A stretch of DNA of 64,000 nt from an uncultured bacterium. Lineage in GTDB: Bacteria; Edwardsbacteria; AC1; EtOH8. Shown here piece by piece: positions 55,810 to 64,000 of this stretch. The stretch spans positions 1 through 64,000 of the forward strand of contig CALMGM010000009.1 in assembly GCA_937863685.1 (NCBI GenBank). Direction: 5' to 3'. Below the pieces are notes generated by a model, which saw only the letters and a list, made by a program, of their open reading frames with translations, did not search any database and was not told the origin of the DNA. Position numbers and translations under genes: made by a program. The first letter of the stretch is position 1. Every line of letters starts with the position of its first letter.

Positions 55810-56385
55810 TCAGCTGCCGGAACGCAGGGTGCTCTCAAGCAATACCTGTTTCTTGCCGGTGCCGTAAATGGCATAGGATGAACACTCGCCGTTGGCGCCC
55901 AGCACGCCGCAAGGGGCCCAATAGGTGGTTCCCTGGCCGCTGACATTGGCAGCGACAACAACAAAACCAGGGGCAACCGGCGGTTCCGCAAATGCCATGG
56001 CATCGATGGAATTGCCGGTGCGGAGGAAGGGGTTGGCATAGGTGTTGTTCTTGGGCAGCATGGCATTGACGCCGGTGGAGACGTTGGCCGCAACGCCGGG
56101 GCAGTTGTCGGCCACATAGGACGGATTGGTGGAGGAATTAATCGCTATACCATTGAGGATGGACATGACAGTGGTCAACGCGTTCGGAACAGCCGGGTAC
56201 ATCCCCTGGCACTGGGTGGCAAAATCCTCGCAGGTCAGCTGCAGGGTGTGCATGTTGGACTTGACGGCCGCTTCCTTGGCCCGGTCCTGCATGGACATGA
56301 AGTTGGGGATGGCGATGGCGGCCAGGATGCCGATGATGACCACCACGATCATCAGCTCGATCAGGGTAAAGCCTTTGTTGTTCAT
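55810..56385 (-). CDS. pilA: type IV major pilin-like protein
   Basis: The 191-aa prepilin has a five-residue leader MNNKG, then FTLIELMIVVVIIGILAAIA with Glu5 conserved, cleaved by PilD after Gly. The globular part is rich in Ala/Thr with paired Cys (CEDFATQC near residues 51-57, C-terminal CGVLGANGECSSY), suggesting disulfides. It is paralogous to the pilin part of the gene at 56607 (shared KSNMHTLQ and EDFA). AGGAG lies 8 bases before ATG 56385, and a sigma-54 promoter stands upstream, fitting high regulated expression of a major pilin. Confidence 0.92.
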   Translation of the reverse strand: MNNKGFTLIELMIVVVIIGILAAIAIPNFMSMQDRAKEAAVKSNMHTLQLTCEDFATQCQGMYPAVPNALTTVMSILNGIAINSSTNPSYVADNCPGVAANVSTGVNAMLPKNNTYANPFLRTGNSIDAMAFAEPPVAPGFVVVAANVSGQGTTYWAPCGVLGANGECSSYAIYGTGKKQVLLESTLRSGS

Positions 56386-56444
56386 TGGGTCGCTCCTATT
56401 AAAGTTAATGGGTTGATTGTTTTATAGCTCTGACAGTTAAATAA

Positions 56445-56459
56445 GCAATATGCATGCCA
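56445..56459 (-). promoter_or_regulatory. sigma-54 (RpoN) promoter for pilA
   Basis: On the minus strand TGGCATG, four bases, TTGC, then T matches the RpoN consensus TGGCAYG-N4-TTGCW. The GG and GC doublets are exactly 10 nt apart. It lies about 60 bp before the pilin start, leaving a leader of roughly 50 nt. A sigma-54 activator gene lies 1.4 kb upstream in the same locus. Confidence 0.85.
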
Positions 56460-56606: not shown

Positions 56607-57686
56607 TTAATGCGTCACCCCTCCGGCCATTATTTGTTCTATCTTGTTGCTTTTGCCAAACCCGCAGATGGAATAGCCGTAAGCATCGGGCGTTGCCCCC
56701 CCGTTCAAGACCCCGGCGTTGTTATAGCTGGTGTAATAGACCACCCCGCTGGGAGCCATAGCCGGAGGGCCGGCCGGCAGGTCGAACAGGGCAACGGCCT
56801 GCCGGTCAAAGGGGTTGGCATAGCCGATATGCGGGCTTATCAAGGCATTGGCCGGAAAGGGCGGCACCCTGACCCCTTCGGCGATGGAGCTTAAAAGATT
56901 ATCCCCGGTTATGGTGGAGATCCGGGTGTCCAGGTTATCCGGGTACCTGCCGCCGGTCTGGGCGGCAAAATCCTCCACCACCATCTGCAGGGTGTGCATG
57001 TTGGACTTGGTGGAGGCCTCCAGGGCCCTATAGCGCATGTTCATGTAATTGGGCACCGCGATGGCCGCCAGAATGCCGATTATCACCACCACCACCATCA
57101 GTTCTATCAGGGTAAAGCCCTTCTGGGACAGCTTCTTTATTTTTTCCTGCATCTGATTTAATTTTTCAATTATCTCCCGGTCCGCCTTCTGCTCCTCTTT
57201 GAGCTTTTGGGAATACGCCTCCATCTCGGACACCACCATTTTAACCGTCTCCCGCTCGTTTGCCACCATGTCCTTGACACTCCGGGCCATCAGATTGAAC
57301 TGCTCGGCCAGATGGTGGCTCTCGTCGTTCTTGCGGAATTTCATGGGGCGCTCCGGCCACCTGCCGTTCTCCAGCGATTTCATGCCGTTATTCAGGCTGA
57401 CCAAGGGCCCGGCAATGCGGTGGGAGATTATTATGGAAATCCAGCCCATGAACAAAACAATGACCGGGATCACGATAAAGAGCGTTTTATGCACCTGGTC
57501 GAAGATGCCGATTATGGCTATCTGTCCGGAGGCGAATTCCGGGCTGGTAATGCCATGCCAGATAATGAGATATATTGCCCCGCCGGTCAGCAGCATCCCC
57601 CCGACCACCATTATCAGTATCTGGGCGACCACCCTAAGCTGCATATCCTTATGAGCCAGCAAGTTGCGTCTTCGATTCTGGGCCAT
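56607..57686 (-). CDS. two-TM HAMP protein fused to a type IV prepilin
   Basis: This 359-aa chain has two parts in one frame. Residues 1-190 are a sensor-like module: TM1 (about 20-43), a short outer loop, TM2 (about 66-89), a HAMP region (ISHRIAGPLVSLNNGMKSLE), and a long coiled coil (about 133-188). Residues 185-210 are a class III prepilin signal: KLSQKG, cleavage after Gly190, then FTLIELMVVVVIIGILAAIA. A pilin-type globular domain follows. Topology is consistent: HAMP and the cleavage site are both cytoplasmic. An internal Met179 could give a normal 12-residue leader, but it has no close Shine-Dalgarno (nearest GGGAG is over 20 nt away). Cleavage would split sensor from pilin. Confidence 0.88.
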   Translation of the reverse strand: MAQNRRRNLLAHKDMQLRVVAQILIMVVGGMLLTGGAIYLIIWHGITSPEFASGQIAIIGIFDQVHKTLFIVIPVIVLFMGWISIIISHRIAGPLVSLNNGMKSLENGRWPERPMKFRKNDESHHLAEQFNLMARSVKDMVANERETVKMVVSEMEAYSQKLKEEQKADREIIEKLNQMQEKIKKLSQKGFTLIELMVVVVIIGILAAIAVPNYMNMRYRALEASTKSNMHTLQMVVEDFAAQTGGRYPDNLDTRISTITGDNLLSSIAEGVRVPPFPANALISPHIGYANPFDRQAVALFDLPAGPPAMAPSGVVYYTSYNNAGVLNGGATPDAYGYSICGFGKSNKIEQIMAGGVTH

Positions 57687-57748
57687 ATTATCATCCTTAA
57701 ATAATTGTTATGTCCATAATACATGCAGTTATCGTGCCCGGGATCGAT

Positions 57749-59923
57749 TCAGTCAACTTTAATGTTATAACTTTTGAGTTTCCGGTATAAAGTGGCGTAA
57801 TGAATGCCCAGCTTTTTTGCCGTCAGGGATTTGTTGTTACGGCATTCCGCCAGGACCCGGAGGATGATCTGCTTTTCCTTGTCCTTCAGATTGCCGCCGG
57901 TGACGGCCTCCGGCAGGTACGCCGTGATATCTTCGGCTTCCGGCCTCAACAGCTCATCCGGCAGGCTTTCCTTTTCTATCACCGGGCCGGTCTCCAGGAT
58001 GATGGCCCGCTCCAGGACGTTCTCCAGCTCCCTGACGTTGCCCGGCCAGTTGTACTGCGTCAAAAGGTCCCGGACGGCGGCGGACAGCGGTTTGGCCGCA
58101 ATGTTCTGCTTCCGGCAGTACTGGCCGACGATCTCTTCGGCCAGTAGCAGCACGTCGTCCTTGCGGTCCCTCAGCGGGGGAATGGTTATCTGGATGACGT
58201 TGAGGCGGTAGAACAGGTCGGTCCGGAACCGGCCCTTCTCCACCGCCTTGGACAGGTCGCTGTTGGTGGCCGAGATCACCCTGACGTCCACCTTGATGGG
58301 GCGGGTGCCGCCCACCGGCACGATCTCCCGCTCCTGCAGCACCCGCAGCAGCTTCACCTGGATGGCCGGGGAGGTCTCCGAGACCTCGTCCAGAAAAAAG
58401 GTCCCCCCGCTGGCCACCCGGAACAGCCCGTCCTTGTCCCTCATGGCCCCGGTGAAGGAACCCTTGACGTGCCCGAACAGCTCCGATTCCAGCAGGGTCT
58501 CCGGCAGGGCGGCGCAGTTGATGCTGACGAACGGCCCCTGGCCCCGGCCGCTCAGGCGATGCAATTCCCGGGCCAGCAGTTCCTTGCCGGTGCCGGATTC
58601 GCCGTAGATCAGCACCGTGCTGTCGGTGGGCGCCACCTGCTGGACCATGTTCATGACCTCGATGAAGCCGGGCGACCGCCCGATGATCCGGCTGTCGTAT
58701 TCCCGGCCGGCCGGCTCGGCCTTATCGGCCACCGGGATCTCGATATGGGCGAAGCGGATGAAATCGTCGATGGTCTTGCGGATGTACTCGGTCTTCTCCT
58801 TTATCTGGGAGATCTTGGCGGCGATCCCCGGGCCGGCCTGGTTCTCCCTCATCAGCCCGGTGATGGCGGCATTTATCTCGGAAAGGTAGGGATGAAGCAG
58901 CTTCAGCAGCGACTTGGTAAGCTCCTTGGTGGTCTCCAGCTGTTCCATCTCGATCACCCGGTTCTCCAGGGATTTGGCCGCACTCAGGTCCTGGAAGATG
59001 GCAATGACGCCCTCCAGGGCGCCCTGGGCGTTGTATATGGCGGTGGTGCTGACCCCCACCGGGATGCCGTCCTCCCGGCCCCGCGAGATCTTTATCTCCA
59101 GTCTTTGGGAGCGCCCCTCCCTGAGGATATTGTCCGGATCGAGCACGGCCCCCAGCGTTTCCAGGCCCTCCACGGCTATCTGGGAAACATGGCGGCCCGC
59201 GATCTCGCTCTCCCCCAGCCCCAGGATCTGCCGGCCGGCCAAGTTGCAGTAAACCACCTGCCCCTTTTCGTTGATGGTCAGCAGGCCGCTGCCCATCTTC
59301 TCCAGAATGTCGCCGGTGGATAATTTGAACTCCTCCAGGGCCCGGGTGGTATCCTCCAGCTGGCGGCCCTTGAGCCGCAGCCTCTCCGACAGGTAGCCGG
59401 AAAAGGCGGCCACCAGATAGAAGCAGATGGCGTACAGGTATCCCCGGAAGACGAACTCGGTGTTGAAGGCGGTGACGAAGTCCTGGTCGCGGGTGGTGAG
59501 CAGTCCGGTCTTCAGGCCGCGGTAATCAAGATAGATCAAAAAACCCAGGGTCAGGCTGGAGAGGGTGGCGGTGAAGATGGCTCCCCGGGCGAAACGGACG
59601 TTGGCGGCGGCAATGATGGCCAAAAAGAACAGCAGGGTGAAGGGGTTCTCCGCCCCGCCGGTCCGCTGGATGAACACCGAGATCCAGCCGACATCCAGCA
59701 GCATCTGCCCGTAGTCCCACCACCAGCCGGCTTTCTTGCGGTTAAGATACTTGGCCAGGATGGTGAACAGCAGATAGACCGCCGACAGCAGGATGATGGC
59801 CGGAAAATAAAAGGAAAGCGCCCCCAGTGCCTTAAGCACCAGAGCGCTTCCCGTCATCAAGACCACGATGATTATCCGGCCCCACAACATGATCGGATTG
59901 TCCTTCAGGAAGATTGAACCCAT
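57749..59923 (-). CDS. membrane PAS sigma-54 activator: PilS-like sensor fused to PilR-like output
   Basis: The 724-aa protein has six membrane helices (about 1-185) and a PAS domain (about 200-310; ILEKMGSGLLTINEKGQVVY is the PilS hallmark). A helical segment (about 325-395) lies where HisKA would be, but the phospho-His motif is absent and there is no HATPase_c domain. The AAA+ sigma-54 domain (about 407-640) has GESGTGKE, ELFGHVKGSFTGA (GSFTGA loop for GAFTGA) and GGTFFLDEV. The Fis-type HTH is at the end (SLTAKKLGIHYATLYRKLKS). No receiver domain. Likely activates the sigma-54 promoter of pilA directly from the membrane. Confidence 0.92.
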   Translation of the reverse strand: MGSIFLKDNPIMLWGRIIIVVLMTGSALVLKALGALSFYFPAIILLSAVYLLFTILAKYLNRKKAGWWWDYGQMLLDVGWISVFIQRTGGAENPFTLLFFLAIIAAANVRFARGAIFTATLSSLTLGFLIYLDYRGLKTGLLTTRDQDFVTAFNTEFVFRGYLYAICFYLVAAFSGYLSERLRLKGRQLEDTTRALEEFKLSTGDILEKMGSGLLTINEKGQVVYCNLAGRQILGLGESEIAGRHVSQIAVEGLETLGAVLDPDNILREGRSQRLEIKISRGREDGIPVGVSTTAIYNAQGALEGVIAIFQDLSAAKSLENRVIEMEQLETTKELTKSLLKLLHPYLSEINAAITGLMRENQAGPGIAAKISQIKEKTEYIRKTIDDFIRFAHIEIPVADKAEPAGREYDSRIIGRSPGFIEVMNMVQQVAPTDSTVLIYGESGTGKELLARELHRLSGRGQGPFVSINCAALPETLLESELFGHVKGSFTGAMRDKDGLFRVASGGTFFLDEVSETSPAIQVKLLRVLQEREIVPVGGTRPIKVDVRVISATNSDLSKAVEKGRFRTDLFYRLNVIQITIPPLRDRKDDVLLLAEEIVGQYCRKQNIAAKPLSAAVRDLLTQYNWPGNVRELENVLERAIILETGPVIEKESLPDELLRPEAEDITAYLPEAVTGGNLKDKEKQIILRVLAECRNNKSLTAKKLGIHYATLYRKLKSYNIKVD

Positions 59924-59940
59924 TATACCGGGGATCAGGA

Positions 59941-61152
59941 TTATTTACCGCCCATGATAGCCGAGGTCATGCTGAAGATCGGCAGGTACATGGCGATCAC
60001 CATGCCTCCGATGCCCAGGCCCAGCACCACCATGATCAACGGTTCCATGGCCGCGGTCAGTCCCTCCACCGCGCCGTCCACCTCCTCGTCGTAGAAGTCG
60101 GCGATCTTGTTGAGCATCTCGTCCAGGCCGCCGGTGGCCTCGCCCACCGCGATCATCTGCACCACCATGGGCGGGAATATCTTCATGGTCTTTAAAGGGG
60201 CCGAGATGGTCTCGCCGCCGCCGATGGATTTGCGGGCCTGCATGATGGCGTCCTGGACCACCCGGTTGCCGGCGGTCTTGGCGGTGATCTCCAGGGCGTC
60301 CAAAATGGCCACGCCGCTGGCCAGCAGGGTGCCCAGGGTGCGGGCGAAACGGGCGATGGCCGATTTCTGCTGGAGGTTCCCCAGGATCGGTATCTTCAGC
60401 AGTATCTGGTCGATCATCAACTGGCCTTTGTCCGTCTTATAGTACCGTTGGATGGCGATGGTTATGGCCACCCCCGCTATGATGATGGGCACTATCCACT
60501 TCTGCAGAAACTTTGACAGGGCGACCACGAAAAGGGTCGGAGCGGGCAGCTTGGCCCCCATCTCGCCGAACATCTTTTCGAAGATGGGGATCACGAAGAT
60601 CAGCAGGACGGCCGCGGCGCCCACCGCCACCGAGGTCAGGATCACCGGCATGATCATGGCCCGTTTGACCTTGGCCACCAGGGCCTCGGCCTTTTCCAGA
60701 TAGGTGGCCAGCCGCATCAGGATGTTGTCCAGGATACCTCCGGCCTCGCCGGCCGCCGCCATGTTGATATACAGCTCGCTGAACACATGCTTCTGCCGCT
60801 TGAGGGCCTCGGCCAGGGTGGAGCCGCCCTCCACGTCGGCCTTGATGGTCTCCAGCACCTTCTTGAAGGTGGGATTCTCCTGCTGCTGGGCCTGGATCTC
60901 CAGGCAGGACACCAGCGGCAGGCCGGCGTTGATCATGGTGGCGAACTGCCGGGTGAAGATCGACAGGTCCTTGTTGCTCACCTTGGGCTGGGTGAAGCTG
61001 AGCTTGATCTCCTTGGGCTTGATACGCACCGAGGAAACGATTATATTTTTGCGGCGCAGAGCCTCGATGACCGCGGTCTCGCTTTCGGCCGTCAGCTCTC
61101 CGGAGACCAAACCGGCTTTGGAATCACGCCCTTTCCAGAGATATAGTGGCAT
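59941..61152 (-). CDS. pilC: type IV pilus inner-membrane platform protein PilC
   Basis: The 403-aa protein is a GspF/PilC member with two repeats of the T2SSF fold. LSIFTRQFATMINAGLPLVS, LAEALKRQKHVFSELYINMA and AAGEAGGILDNILMRLATYL occur in the first; IARFARTLGTLLASGVAILD and VAVGEATGGLDEMLNKIADF-like sequence in the second. Three membrane helices are seen. It anchors the PilB/PilT motors and pilin assembly. It follows the pilT gene after 58 bp and precedes the regulator by 17 bp. Confidence 0.97.
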   Translation of the reverse strand: MPLYLWKGRDSKAGLVSGELTAESETAVIEALRRKNIIVSSVRIKPKEIKLSFTQPKVSNKDLSIFTRQFATMINAGLPLVSCLEIQAQQQENPTFKKVLETIKADVEGGSTLAEALKRQKHVFSELYINMAAAGEAGGILDNILMRLATYLEKAEALVAKVKRAMIMPVILTSVAVGAAAVLLIFVIPIFEKMFGEMGAKLPAPTLFVVALSKFLQKWIVPIIIAGVAITIAIQRYYKTDKGQLMIDQILLKIPILGNLQQKSAIARFARTLGTLLASGVAILDALEITAKTAGNRVVQDAIMQARKSIGGGETISAPLKTMKIFPPMVVQMIAVGEATGGLDEMLNKIADFYDEEVDGAVEGLTAAMEPLIMVVLGLGIGGMVIAMYLPIFSMTSAIMGGK

Positions 61153-61210: not shown

Positions 61211-62281
61211 TCAGACCACCGTCTGACGCTTTTTGATCATCTGGTCCAGTTCCTCCAAGTTGGAGGAGTAGTCAAAGGCGGTGTCCAGGGAGATCTTCTT
61301 CTCGAAGAACAGATTGGCCAGGGACTGGTTCATGGTCTGCATGCCGTATTTCTGCCCGGCCTGCATGGAGGAATATATCTGGTGCACCTTGTCGTCCCGG
61401 ATCAGGGCCTTGATGGCCGGGGTGCAGACCATGATCTCCAGGCACAGGGCCCGGCCGCCCCGGGTCATGGGGACCAGCTGCTGGGTCATCACCCCCTCCA
61501 GCACGAAGGCCAGCTGGGCCCGCACCTGGGGCTGCTGATATGGCGGAAAGACGTCGATGATGCGGTGGACGGATTCGGCCGCCGAATTGGTATGCAGGGT
61601 GGCCAGGGTCAGATGGCCGGTCTCGGAGATGTGCAGGGCCGATTCGACGGTCTCCAGGTCCCTCATCTCGCCTACCAGAACCACGTCCGGGTCCTGCCGC
61701 AGGGCATATTTGAGGGCGTTCTTGAAGCTCTTGGTGTCCGATTCCAGCTCCCGCTGGTTGATGATGCATTTCTTGTGATGGTGGATGTACTCGATGGGGT
61801 CCTCCACCGTGATGATATGGCTGCGCCGCTCGCTGTTGATCTTGTCGATCATGGTGGCCAGGGTGGTGGATTTGCCGGAGCCGGTGGGTCCGGTGACCAG
61901 CACCAGGCCCTTGGGCTTGTCGGCCAGGGCGGCCGCCACCGGGGGAAGCCCCAGCGCCTGGAAGGAGCGGATCTCCCAGGGGATCACCCGCATGGCCATG
62001 GCCACACAGCCCCTCTGCAAAAAGATGTTGCCCCGGAAGCGGGACAGCCCCTGAATGCCGATGGAGAGGTCCAGTTCCCGTTCGGTCTCGAAGCGCTTCT
62101 TCTGGCTGTCCTTGAGGATGCTGTAGGCCAGGGTCTCGGTTATCTGGGGAGTGAGGATCTCGTGGGAGGTTATCGTCAGCTCGCCGTCCACCCTGATCAC
62201 CGGGGGCACCCCCACCGTCAGGTGCAGGTCGGTCCCCTTCTTCTGGATCATCTCCTCCAACAATTGAGTGAGGGTCAACAT
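61211..62281 (-). CDS. pilT: type IV pilus retraction ATPase PilT
   Basis: PilT is the hexameric ATPase that depolymerises pili. The 356-aa protein has KGTDLHLTVGVPPVIRVDGE, Walker A GPTGSGKSTTLATMIDK, the Asp box TVEDPIEYIHHHKKC, Walker B VVLVGEMRDLET, the His box ISETGHLTLATLHTNSAAES, and the retraction-specific AIRNLIRE-like region as IKALIRDDKVHQIYSSMQAG. It is located between pilB and pilC. Its presence implies twitching or DNA-uptake pili. Confidence 0.97.
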   Translation of the reverse strand: MLTLTQLLEEMIQKKGTDLHLTVGVPPVIRVDGELTITSHEILTPQITETLAYSILKDSQKKRFETERELDLSIGIQGLSRFRGNIFLQRGCVAMAMRVIPWEIRSFQALGLPPVAAALADKPKGLVLVTGPTGSGKSTTLATMIDKINSERRSHIITVEDPIEYIHHHKKCIINQRELESDTKSFKNALKYALRQDPDVVLVGEMRDLETVESALHISETGHLTLATLHTNSAAESVHRIIDVFPPYQQPQVRAQLAFVLEGVMTQQLVPMTRGGRALCLEIMVCTPAIKALIRDDKVHQIYSSMQAGQKYGMQTMNQSLANLFFEKKISLDTAFDYSSNLEELDQMIKKRQTVV

Positions 62282-62374: not shown

Positions 62375-64000
62375 CTATCCCTCGGCGGTCTCGCGGAACA
62401 TCTCCTCCACCGTGGTCATGCCCTGCTTGACCTTGCCCCAGGCGTCCATCCGCAGGGTCAGCATCCCCTGCTCCACCGCTTTGGCCCGGATGGAGGTGAC
62501 CGCCTCCCGGTTGAGTATCAGGTCGCGGATCTCGGGGGTGATGGGCATCACCTCGTAAAGACCCACCCGGCCCTTGTAGCCGGTGTTGTTGCAGATGGGG
62601 CAGCCCTTGCCTTTGTAATAGGTGACCCCGGCCACCTCCTCGGCCTTGAAGCCCATATCGATCAATGACTGGGAATTTACCTGAAACGGCTCTTTGCAGG
62701 CCTTGCATATCCGGCGGACCAAACGCTGGGCCTGGATCAGCACGGTGGACGAGGCCACCAGGAACGGCTCGATGCCCATGTCTATCAGACGGCTGACCGA
62801 GGACGGGGCGTCGTTGGTATGCAGGGTGGACAGCACCAGGTGTCCGGTCAGAGCGGCCTTGACCGCGATGGCGGCGGTGGGGCCGTCCCTGATCTCGCCC
62901 AGCATGATGATGTTGGGGGCCTGCCGCAGCATGGCCCGGAGGGCCACGTCGAAGGTGAACCCTATTCCCATCTCGGCCTGGATCTGATTGACCCCTTTCA
63001 GGTTGTACTCGATGGGGTCCTCCACCGTCAGGATGTGCTTGTCCGGGGTGTTCATCTGGGACAGGGCCGAATACAGGGTGGTGGTCTTGCCCGATCCGGT
63101 GGGGCCGGTGATCAGCACGATGCCGTAGGGGGCGTGAATGGCCTTTATAAAATTCTTCAGGGCCAGTTCGGTGAAACCGAAGTTGGCCAGATCCAGGGTC
63201 AGGGATCCGGCGTCCAGGATACGCATCACCACCTTCTCCCCGAACAGCACCGGCAGGGTGGAGACCCGCAGGTCGATCTTCTTGTTAAGCACTTTGATGG
63301 CGATGCGGCCGTCCTGGGGCTTGCGGCGCTCGGTGACGTCCAGCTTGGACATGATCTTGATGCGGGAGACCAGCGGGGCCTTCATCCGCATGGGCGGCTC
63401 CATCAGGGTCTGCAGAACGCCGTCCTGCCTTAACCTGATCCGGAAGATCTTCTCGTAGGGCTCCACATGGATATCCGAGGCCCCGCGGCGGACCGCCTCG
63501 GTCATGATGTAGTTCACCATCTTGACCACCGGGGTGGAGGAGCCGGCCTGCTGGACGTCGGCCAGGTCCTCATCCTGCGCCTCCTCATCCACCATCTCCA
63601 TCTCGATATCGCCCTCCAGCCCCTCCAGGGCGGCATCCTCGTCCTCCGGCAGGCTTTCGATGGCCTCGTCCTTGACCTGGCTCAGCTGGCCGCCGGAGGC
63701 GATCACCTGGATGTCCTTGCCCAGCGGATAATGCTGTTCCAGCAGTTTCTTGACGGCCGAATAGCCGGCCACCACCGGCTTGACGTCCAGGCCGGTGAGG
63801 AATTTGATGTCCTCCAGGGCGAAGATATCGGAGGGGTCTATCATGGCCAGGGTCAGGGCCCGGCCCAGGCGCTTTATCGGGATCACCATGAACTTGTTGG
63901 CGATGTCCGGCCTGATCAGCTTTATCACCGCCGGCTCCACCTGGAAATTGCTGAGGTCCATGGCCGGGACATTGAACTGCCGGGACATGAACTGCATGGC
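62375..64000 (-). CDS. pilB: type IV pilus assembly ATPase PilB (5' end outside window)
   Basis: At least 541 residues are visible; the N-terminus runs off the right edge. What is seen: part of the GspE N-terminal domain (QFNVPAMDLSNF), an acidic linker (EDEDAALEGLEGDIEMEMVD), then the secretion ATPase: RRGASDIHVEPYEKIFRIRL, Walker A GPTGSGKTTTLYSALSQ, Asp box TVEDPIEYNLKGVNQ, Walker B IIMLGEIRDGPT, and a His box with ALTGHLVLSTLHTNDAPSS. A tetracysteine zinc motif follows as CKAC ... CPIC. PilB extends pili. The Met at 63997 is internal, not the true start. Confidence 0.96.
   Translation of the reverse strand, partial: AMQFMSRQFNVPAMDLSNFQVEPAVIKLIRPDIANKFMVIPIKRLGRALTLAMIDPSDIFALEDIKFLTGLDVKPVVAGYSAVKKLLEQHYPLGKDIQVIASGGQLSQVKDEAIESLPEDEDAALEGLEGDIEMEMVDEEAQDEDLADVQQAGSSTPVVKMVNYIMTEAVRRGASDIHVEPYEKIFRIRLRQDGVLQTLMEPPMRMKAPLVSRIKIMSKLDVTERRKPQDGRIAIKVLNKKIDLRVSTLPVLFGEKVVMRILDAGSLTLDLANFGFTELALKNFIKAIHAPYGIVLITGPTGSGKTTTLYSALSQMNTPDKHILTVEDPIEYNLKGVNQIQAEMGIGFTFDVALRAMLRQAPNIIMLGEIRDGPTAAIAVKAALTGHLVLSTLHTNDAPSSVSRLIDMGIEPFLVASSTVLIQAQRLVRRICKACKEPFQVNSQSLIDMGFKAEEVAGVTYYKGKGCPICNNTGYKGRVGLYEVMPITPEIRDLILNREAVTSIRAKAVEQGMLTLRMDAWGKVKQGMTTVEEMFRETAEG

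Follow-up and report, generated by a model that had tools for sequence, protein, structure and literature searches.

The leader of a prepilin is generally viewed as a short tag. In the window, the whole stretch of 64,000 nucleotides that was analysed (genome G000), one reading frame places a transmembrane HAMP module (TM-HAMP) in the position of that tag, which raises the question of whether such a protein is a real prepilin and what becomes of its module. With a two-helix HAMP module in the leader's place, a single cut by PilD would yield two membrane proteins in fixed stoichiometry. Together with a gene pairing found elsewhere, the fusion suggests that pilins have a partner that has gone unrecognised. 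It connects HAMP-type signalling modules with type IV filaments in a concrete way that can be tested, and it bears on how cells sense pilin pools and the state of the pilus. Judged by its sequence, the fusion is genuine: Candidatus Edwardsbacteria, a little-known phylum, encodes a prepilin built of two modules. The reading that we hold, taken as a whole, to be rather probable is that of a prepilin born by loss of a stop codon and cut by PilD, whose TM-HAMP part becomes an inner-membrane partner of the pilin.

Parts of the fusion and comparison with known systems

The features of the locus are collected in Table 1. Residues 187-210 of the fusion match Pfam N_methyl (1.9e-9; 37.1 bits against a cut-off of 21.2), and the prepilin hallmarks, Gly-1 and Glu+5 around a hydrophobic helix, are present. 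The Pfam HAMP match of residues 87-138 (3e-4) reaches 21.5 bits where the curated cut-off is 25, and a HAMP match at E<=0.01 was obtained for three of six family members; L106, a standalone TM-HAMP relative linked to a pilin, scores 42.8 bits with the same Pfam model. A positively charged N-terminus, placed as cytoplasmic, precedes the first helix, the two helices are joined by a periplasmic loop of only ~25 aa, and a K/E-rich linker helix sits ahead of KLSQKG/FTLIELM. The topology proposed in the first-pass annotation, with HAMP and the PilD site both on the cytoplasmic side, is thus workable in the orientation that we infer. Matches of the pilin body to PilA_Myxo/GspG-type models were weak and lay in its N-terminal part; the Myxococcus-type PilA model (NF041775) scored 50 bits, in the N-terminal region only, against an equivalog score of 400. 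No Pfam match to an MCP signalling or HisKA/HATPase output domain was found in the fusion, and the AlphaFold prediction (pLDDT 41) gave no usable structure.

Table 1. Features of the pilus gene row and of the HAMP-pilin fusion, in window positions
Feature	Position	Strand	Remarks
pilB (extension ATPase)	62375..63997	minus	5' end outside window
pilT (retraction ATPase)	61211..62281	minus	Pfam T2SSE
pilC (inner-membrane platform)	59941..61152	minus	Pfam T2SSF
Membrane-bound sigma-54 activator	57749..59923	minus	PilS-like 6TM, PAS, sigma-54 AAA+ and Fis HTH; conserved in family
Sigma-54-like -24/-12 site GGGCACGATAACTGCA	57724..57739	minus	8/10 consensus
Shine-Dalgarno AAGGA ahead of first ATG	57694..57698	minus	Equivalents in all relatives
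HAMP-pilin fusion gene	56607..57686	minus	359 aa, first ATG (MAQNRRR) to stop, unbroken
First transmembrane helix	57558..57626	minus	~Residues 21-43; hydrophobicity, aligned in relatives
Second transmembrane helix	57423..57482	minus	~Residues 69-88; hydrophobicity, aligned in relatives
HAMP domain, residues 87-138 (HRIAGP...FRKNDE)	57273..57428	minus	Pfam HAMP below cut-off, and TM-HAMP profile A2
Helical linker, residues 139-189	57120..57272	minus	Ends LSQK, then Gly190; indel-free in 5 genomes
Prepilin peptidase site Gly190/Phe191 and hydrophobic helix alpha-1N	57042..57119	minus	Pfam N_methyl; Glu at mature position 5
Remaining pilin body of fusion	56610..57041	minus	Paralogous to downstream pilin
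Sigma-54-like site of second pilin, TGGCATGCATATTGCT	56444..56459	minus	9/10 consensus
Second, ordinary pilin, short leader MNNKG	55810..56385	minus	Directly downstream of fusion

Published type IV prepilin leaders consist of 6-26 mostly hydrophilic residues and are cut after Gly on the cytoplasmic side (PMC4471445), which bears out the earlier remark that known leaders are short. The fusion departs from this pattern, as its leader would comprise 190 residues with two transmembrane helices. With type IVa prepilins, which bear a class III signal peptide and are processed by PilD, it shares Gly-1/Phe+1, Glu+5, alpha-1N and the pilin body, and its locus shares pilB-pilT-pilC and sigma-54-type regulation with type IVa systems; the difference lies in the long leader with its helices and HAMP. 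In the case of HAMP receptors (chemoreceptors and histidine kinases), the order TM1, periplasmic part, TM2, HAMP and helical continuation is common to both, whereas the fusion has ~25 periplasmic residues and a prepilin in the output position in place of a kinase or MCP domain. The modular pilins PilB and PilC of S. sanguinis also join a pilin to an extra module, but theirs is C-terminal and extracytoplasmic, while the fusion carries its own at the N-terminus, facing the cytoplasm, where PilD would remove it. The open-access literature held nothing relevant on HAMP with prepilins or pilins, on standalone HAMP with pili, or on the pili of Edwardsbacteria. A prepilin with a polytopic leader is apparently new, and the pairing of TM-HAMP with pilins is apparently undescribed.

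Conservation, start site and loss of the module

Among 98 relatives searched, the architecture of HAMP followed by N_methyl with the same junction was found again, in no case with a stop. Full-length, stop-free orthologues occur in G003 (68% identity), G002 (64%) and G006 (58%, another genus), and that of G009 is open through FTLIELMIVVV up to the end of its contig, so the uninterrupted frame of two helices, HAMP, coil and prepilin described in the first-pass annotation is real. Together with G000, the fusion-bearing genomes span two genera. A chance frame is excluded by these three further genomes with an open architecture and by the fourth, cut off at its contig end. That two genes were joined by an error of sequencing or assembly is barely credible, and this was rejected, as independent genomes at 58-68% identity carry the identical junction. 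The fusion is absent, perhaps partly through assembly, in G004, G005, G007 and G008.

Within the linker (residues 141-189, 49 aa), no indel was observed across five genomes despite near-saturated synonymous divergence, and nonsynonymous differences lie well below synonymous ones in every pair (pN 0.13-0.48 versus pS 0.48-0.91). Both observations indicate that the junction is read as protein. For the TM-HAMP part, dN/dS was about 0.08-0.21 where measurable; helices, HAMP and linker are all under purifying selection, with constant length over the two genera. G190, F191 and E195 are invariant in six homologues. In the TM-HAMP tree, of which the backbone is unresolved, the fusions form a single clade with support of 1.0, and hence one origin is indicated. 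The fusion of G003 (L041:10621-11706, compared with L043 and L045) shows a separate peculiarity: its linker shares 73% identity with the G006 linker and only 43% with the G000 one, yet in the TM-HAMP part G000 is the closer of the two. This is probably a mosaic gene that arose through recombination.

The main rival named at the outset was a chance read-in of the HAMP frame to a pilin translated separately from Met179. Such a start would give an ordinary 12-residue leader. Nevertheless, the five fusions have M, L, I, L and L at position 179, no Shine-Dalgarno sequence was found close upstream of Met179, and the linker is under selection at the protein level. Ahead of the first ATG, a GG-N10-GC element resembling a -24/-12 site (36-46 bp upstream) and a Shine-Dalgarno-like sequence were found in all six loci. 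Taken one by one, the six sigma-54-like sites are weak matches (shuffle P 0.003-0.05), and the case for the promoter rests on its conserved position and on the adjoining gene for a sigma-54 activator. On conservation, promoter and Shine-Dalgarno sequence, the internal start was rejected as very improbable, and translation of the fusion is taken to begin at the first ATG, which a conserved sigma-54-like promoter precedes.

The same first ATG and promoter were retained in G001, of the same genus, where the orthologue starts MAQNRGIKSWQKG/FTLIEL (i.e., MAQNR-GIKSWQKG/FTLIEL), with the promoter position unchanged. It keeps the first five residues of the fusion and the prepilin signal, while the TM-HAMP part of ~180 residues is gone in frame. 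An in-frame deletion of ~180 codons is the simplest reading; loss is indicated because both ends are kept and the fusion occurs in another genus. It follows that the module is not essential to the pilin in G001, and the intact pilin frame behind a short leader fits a cleavable leader. One may then ask whether TM-HAMP is a passenger, an accidental fusion tolerated since PilD removes the module, which would have no role of its own. Its loss in G001, which left the pilin frame intact, and the four genomes in which it is absent or not assembled, agree with this. We consider it quite improbable, given the purifying selection on helices, HAMP and linker, the length unchanged over two genera, and the TM-HAMP genes that adjoin pilin genes in 9 families (see below).

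Standalone TM-HAMP proteins and the origin of the fusion

Profile A2 of the TM-HAMP module, whose rows include the fusions, spans positions 1-184 in the fusions and about 60 listed standalone proteins of ~200 aa from many bacterial families and phyla; standalone members in G073, G093 and G074 were also reached by the fusion query alone. These proteins, an uncurated family, share the whole module, including an N-terminal RRxxI..K..Q.R motif and the C-terminal helix. They stop where the fused prepilin signal starts, and the linker corresponds to their natural C-terminal helix. A break enriched in Pro and Gly, at positions equivalent to 167-169, suggests a helical hairpin back toward the membrane. 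Unlike the fusions, which are restricted to the Edwardsbacteria lineage, they are encoded by separate genes.

A pilin was found as immediate operon neighbour of the standalone gene in 8 of 57 loci, which were collected without a pilin query and exclude the seeds that the fusion query had yielded, against a background of 5 in 491 genes. With the seeds included, the count is 11 of 64 loci, in 9 of 30 families. The enrichment corresponds to a Fisher p of 7e-6 without seeds and 6e-8 with them, where loci of the same family are not independent. No true pilin was seen near 20 chemoreceptor or kinase HAMP loci. The occurrence of TM-HAMP and pilin as neighbouring genes in other phyla suggests a joint function. 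The majority of standalone TM-HAMP genes do not adjoin pilins, and neither do the nearest neighbours of the fusion in the tree (weak support). Among the neighbour families, pilins are the commonest and ComEC is second, with cytochromes, PorV-like proteins and others also present; with neighbours so varied, the link to pilins is partial.

Two side observations were made on these neighbours. In L114 and L145, a ComEC-type gene beside or near the standalone TM-HAMP gene was confirmed by Pfam, and BLAST clustering placed one likewise in L115, L128, L159, L161 and L163; a link to DNA uptake is possible. In seven loci of wider relatives of G073 (L194, L196, L199, L200, L201, L202 and L203), the gene upstream of TM-HAMP encodes a pilin-like head (EKTREGTTVGxLxxLRQAxLLYYQDHNGxFPREL) on an N-terminal transmembrane helix that has no prepilin cleavage motif.

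In G073 and several relatives, a TM-HAMP gene stands between two pilin genes, the gaps measuring 0, -4 or 3 bp; in G073 and G386 no nucleotide lies between the stop codon of TM-HAMP and the ATG of the pilin, which share one reading frame. Loss of the stop codon between two such genes would give the architecture exactly as found. As pilin-adjacent TM-HAMP pairs recur and stop and ATG are in frame in these two genomes, the fusion most likely arose as a stop-loss union of an adjacent TM-HAMP and pilin gene pair. Separate HAMP and pilin genes in relatives, which the first-pass annotation had listed as a sign against the fusion, do exist, but in distant lineages only; there the pair resembles the precursor of the fusion rather than the mark of an artefact. 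A survey of 386 genomes from across the domain, and of ~120 relatives each of G073 and G051, showed no independent HAMP-pilin fusion.

Processing, regulation and the gene row

Each genome examined has one Peptidase_A24 protein, the prepilin peptidase (at C2:95839-96213 in G000), and the pilus machinery is present in G000, with pilB, pilT and pilC in the fusion's own gene row. Because Gly-1, Phe+1 and Glu+5 are invariant and there is a single prepilin peptidase per genome, the most likely processing is a cut that splits the fusion into a mature pilin and a membrane-bound TM-HAMP protein. No precedent was found for a leader with two transmembrane helices. With a cytoplasmic N-terminus, the two helices would hold the HAMP dimer on the cytoplasmic side together with a helical stalk, which would have to bend back to bring the prepilin site to the inner face of the membrane. 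The cut after Gly190 would then set the mature pilin free and leave an equal amount of TM-HAMP as a separate membrane protein, equivalent to the standalone proteins of other lineages. As an inner-membrane partner of the pilin, TM-HAMP might, for example, keep prepilins paired or report the pilin supply.

Alternatively, the pilin might be tethered permanently by TM-HAMP, being cut poorly or not at all. It would then sense the state of the pilin or pilus from the membrane without polymerising, and the filament would be built from the downstream pilin. That pilin, normal, paralogous and with a sigma-54-like site of its own, would suit such a division of labour, and the seven loci with an anchored head and no cleavage motif make a membrane-anchored complex of pilin and TM-HAMP plausible. 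Tethering has no need, however, of Gly-1, Phe+1, Glu+5 and a filament-type alpha-1 helix, all of which are kept in every fusion. The canonical cleavage motif speaks mildly against it, the reversion of G001 to an ordinary short leader also counts against it, and we regard tethering as unlikely. A broader proposal than cleavage of this one prepilin is made tentatively and with some doubt: TM-HAMP and pilins, or membrane-anchored pilin-like proteins, could form a widespread, undescribed inner-membrane signalling pair, of which the fusion would be the gene-fusion form, with PilD release or the membrane pilin level coupled to the HAMP switch.

The minus-strand gene order is pilB-pilT-pilC, regulator, HAMP-pilin and ordinary pilin. 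The membrane-bound, PilS-like sigma-54 activator encoded just upstream of the fusion is the likely regulator of both pilin genes and would probably switch synthesis of the fusion. The PilS-PilR-PilA circuit of P. aeruginosa (PMC6058289) shares with this locus a 6TM PilS-like sensor, a sigma-54 activator and a pilin gene in sequence. Here, unlike there, sensor and activator are one protein, in which neither a histidine kinase ATPase nor a receiver domain was found, and the pilin is fused to HAMP. That article, citing Kilmury and Burrows 2016, states that PilS binds PilA inside the membrane; given the PilS-like 6TM domain encoded upstream, sensing of the pilin pool is plausible here by analogy. 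PilS and PilR appear to have merged into a one-component membrane activator at a pilus locus.

The second pilin, which was rightly described earlier as a normal paralogue directly downstream, is 46% identical to the pilin part of the fusion over ~164 residues. Its sigma-54-like element lies ~61-69 bp before the start in G000, G003, G002 and G006, with a distance of 66-69 bp in the three relatives. In G006 (L043:6306-12532), a glycosyltransferase-like gene separates the regulator from the HAMP-pilin gene and two large genes separate the latter from the second pilin; hence the gene row is not fixed.
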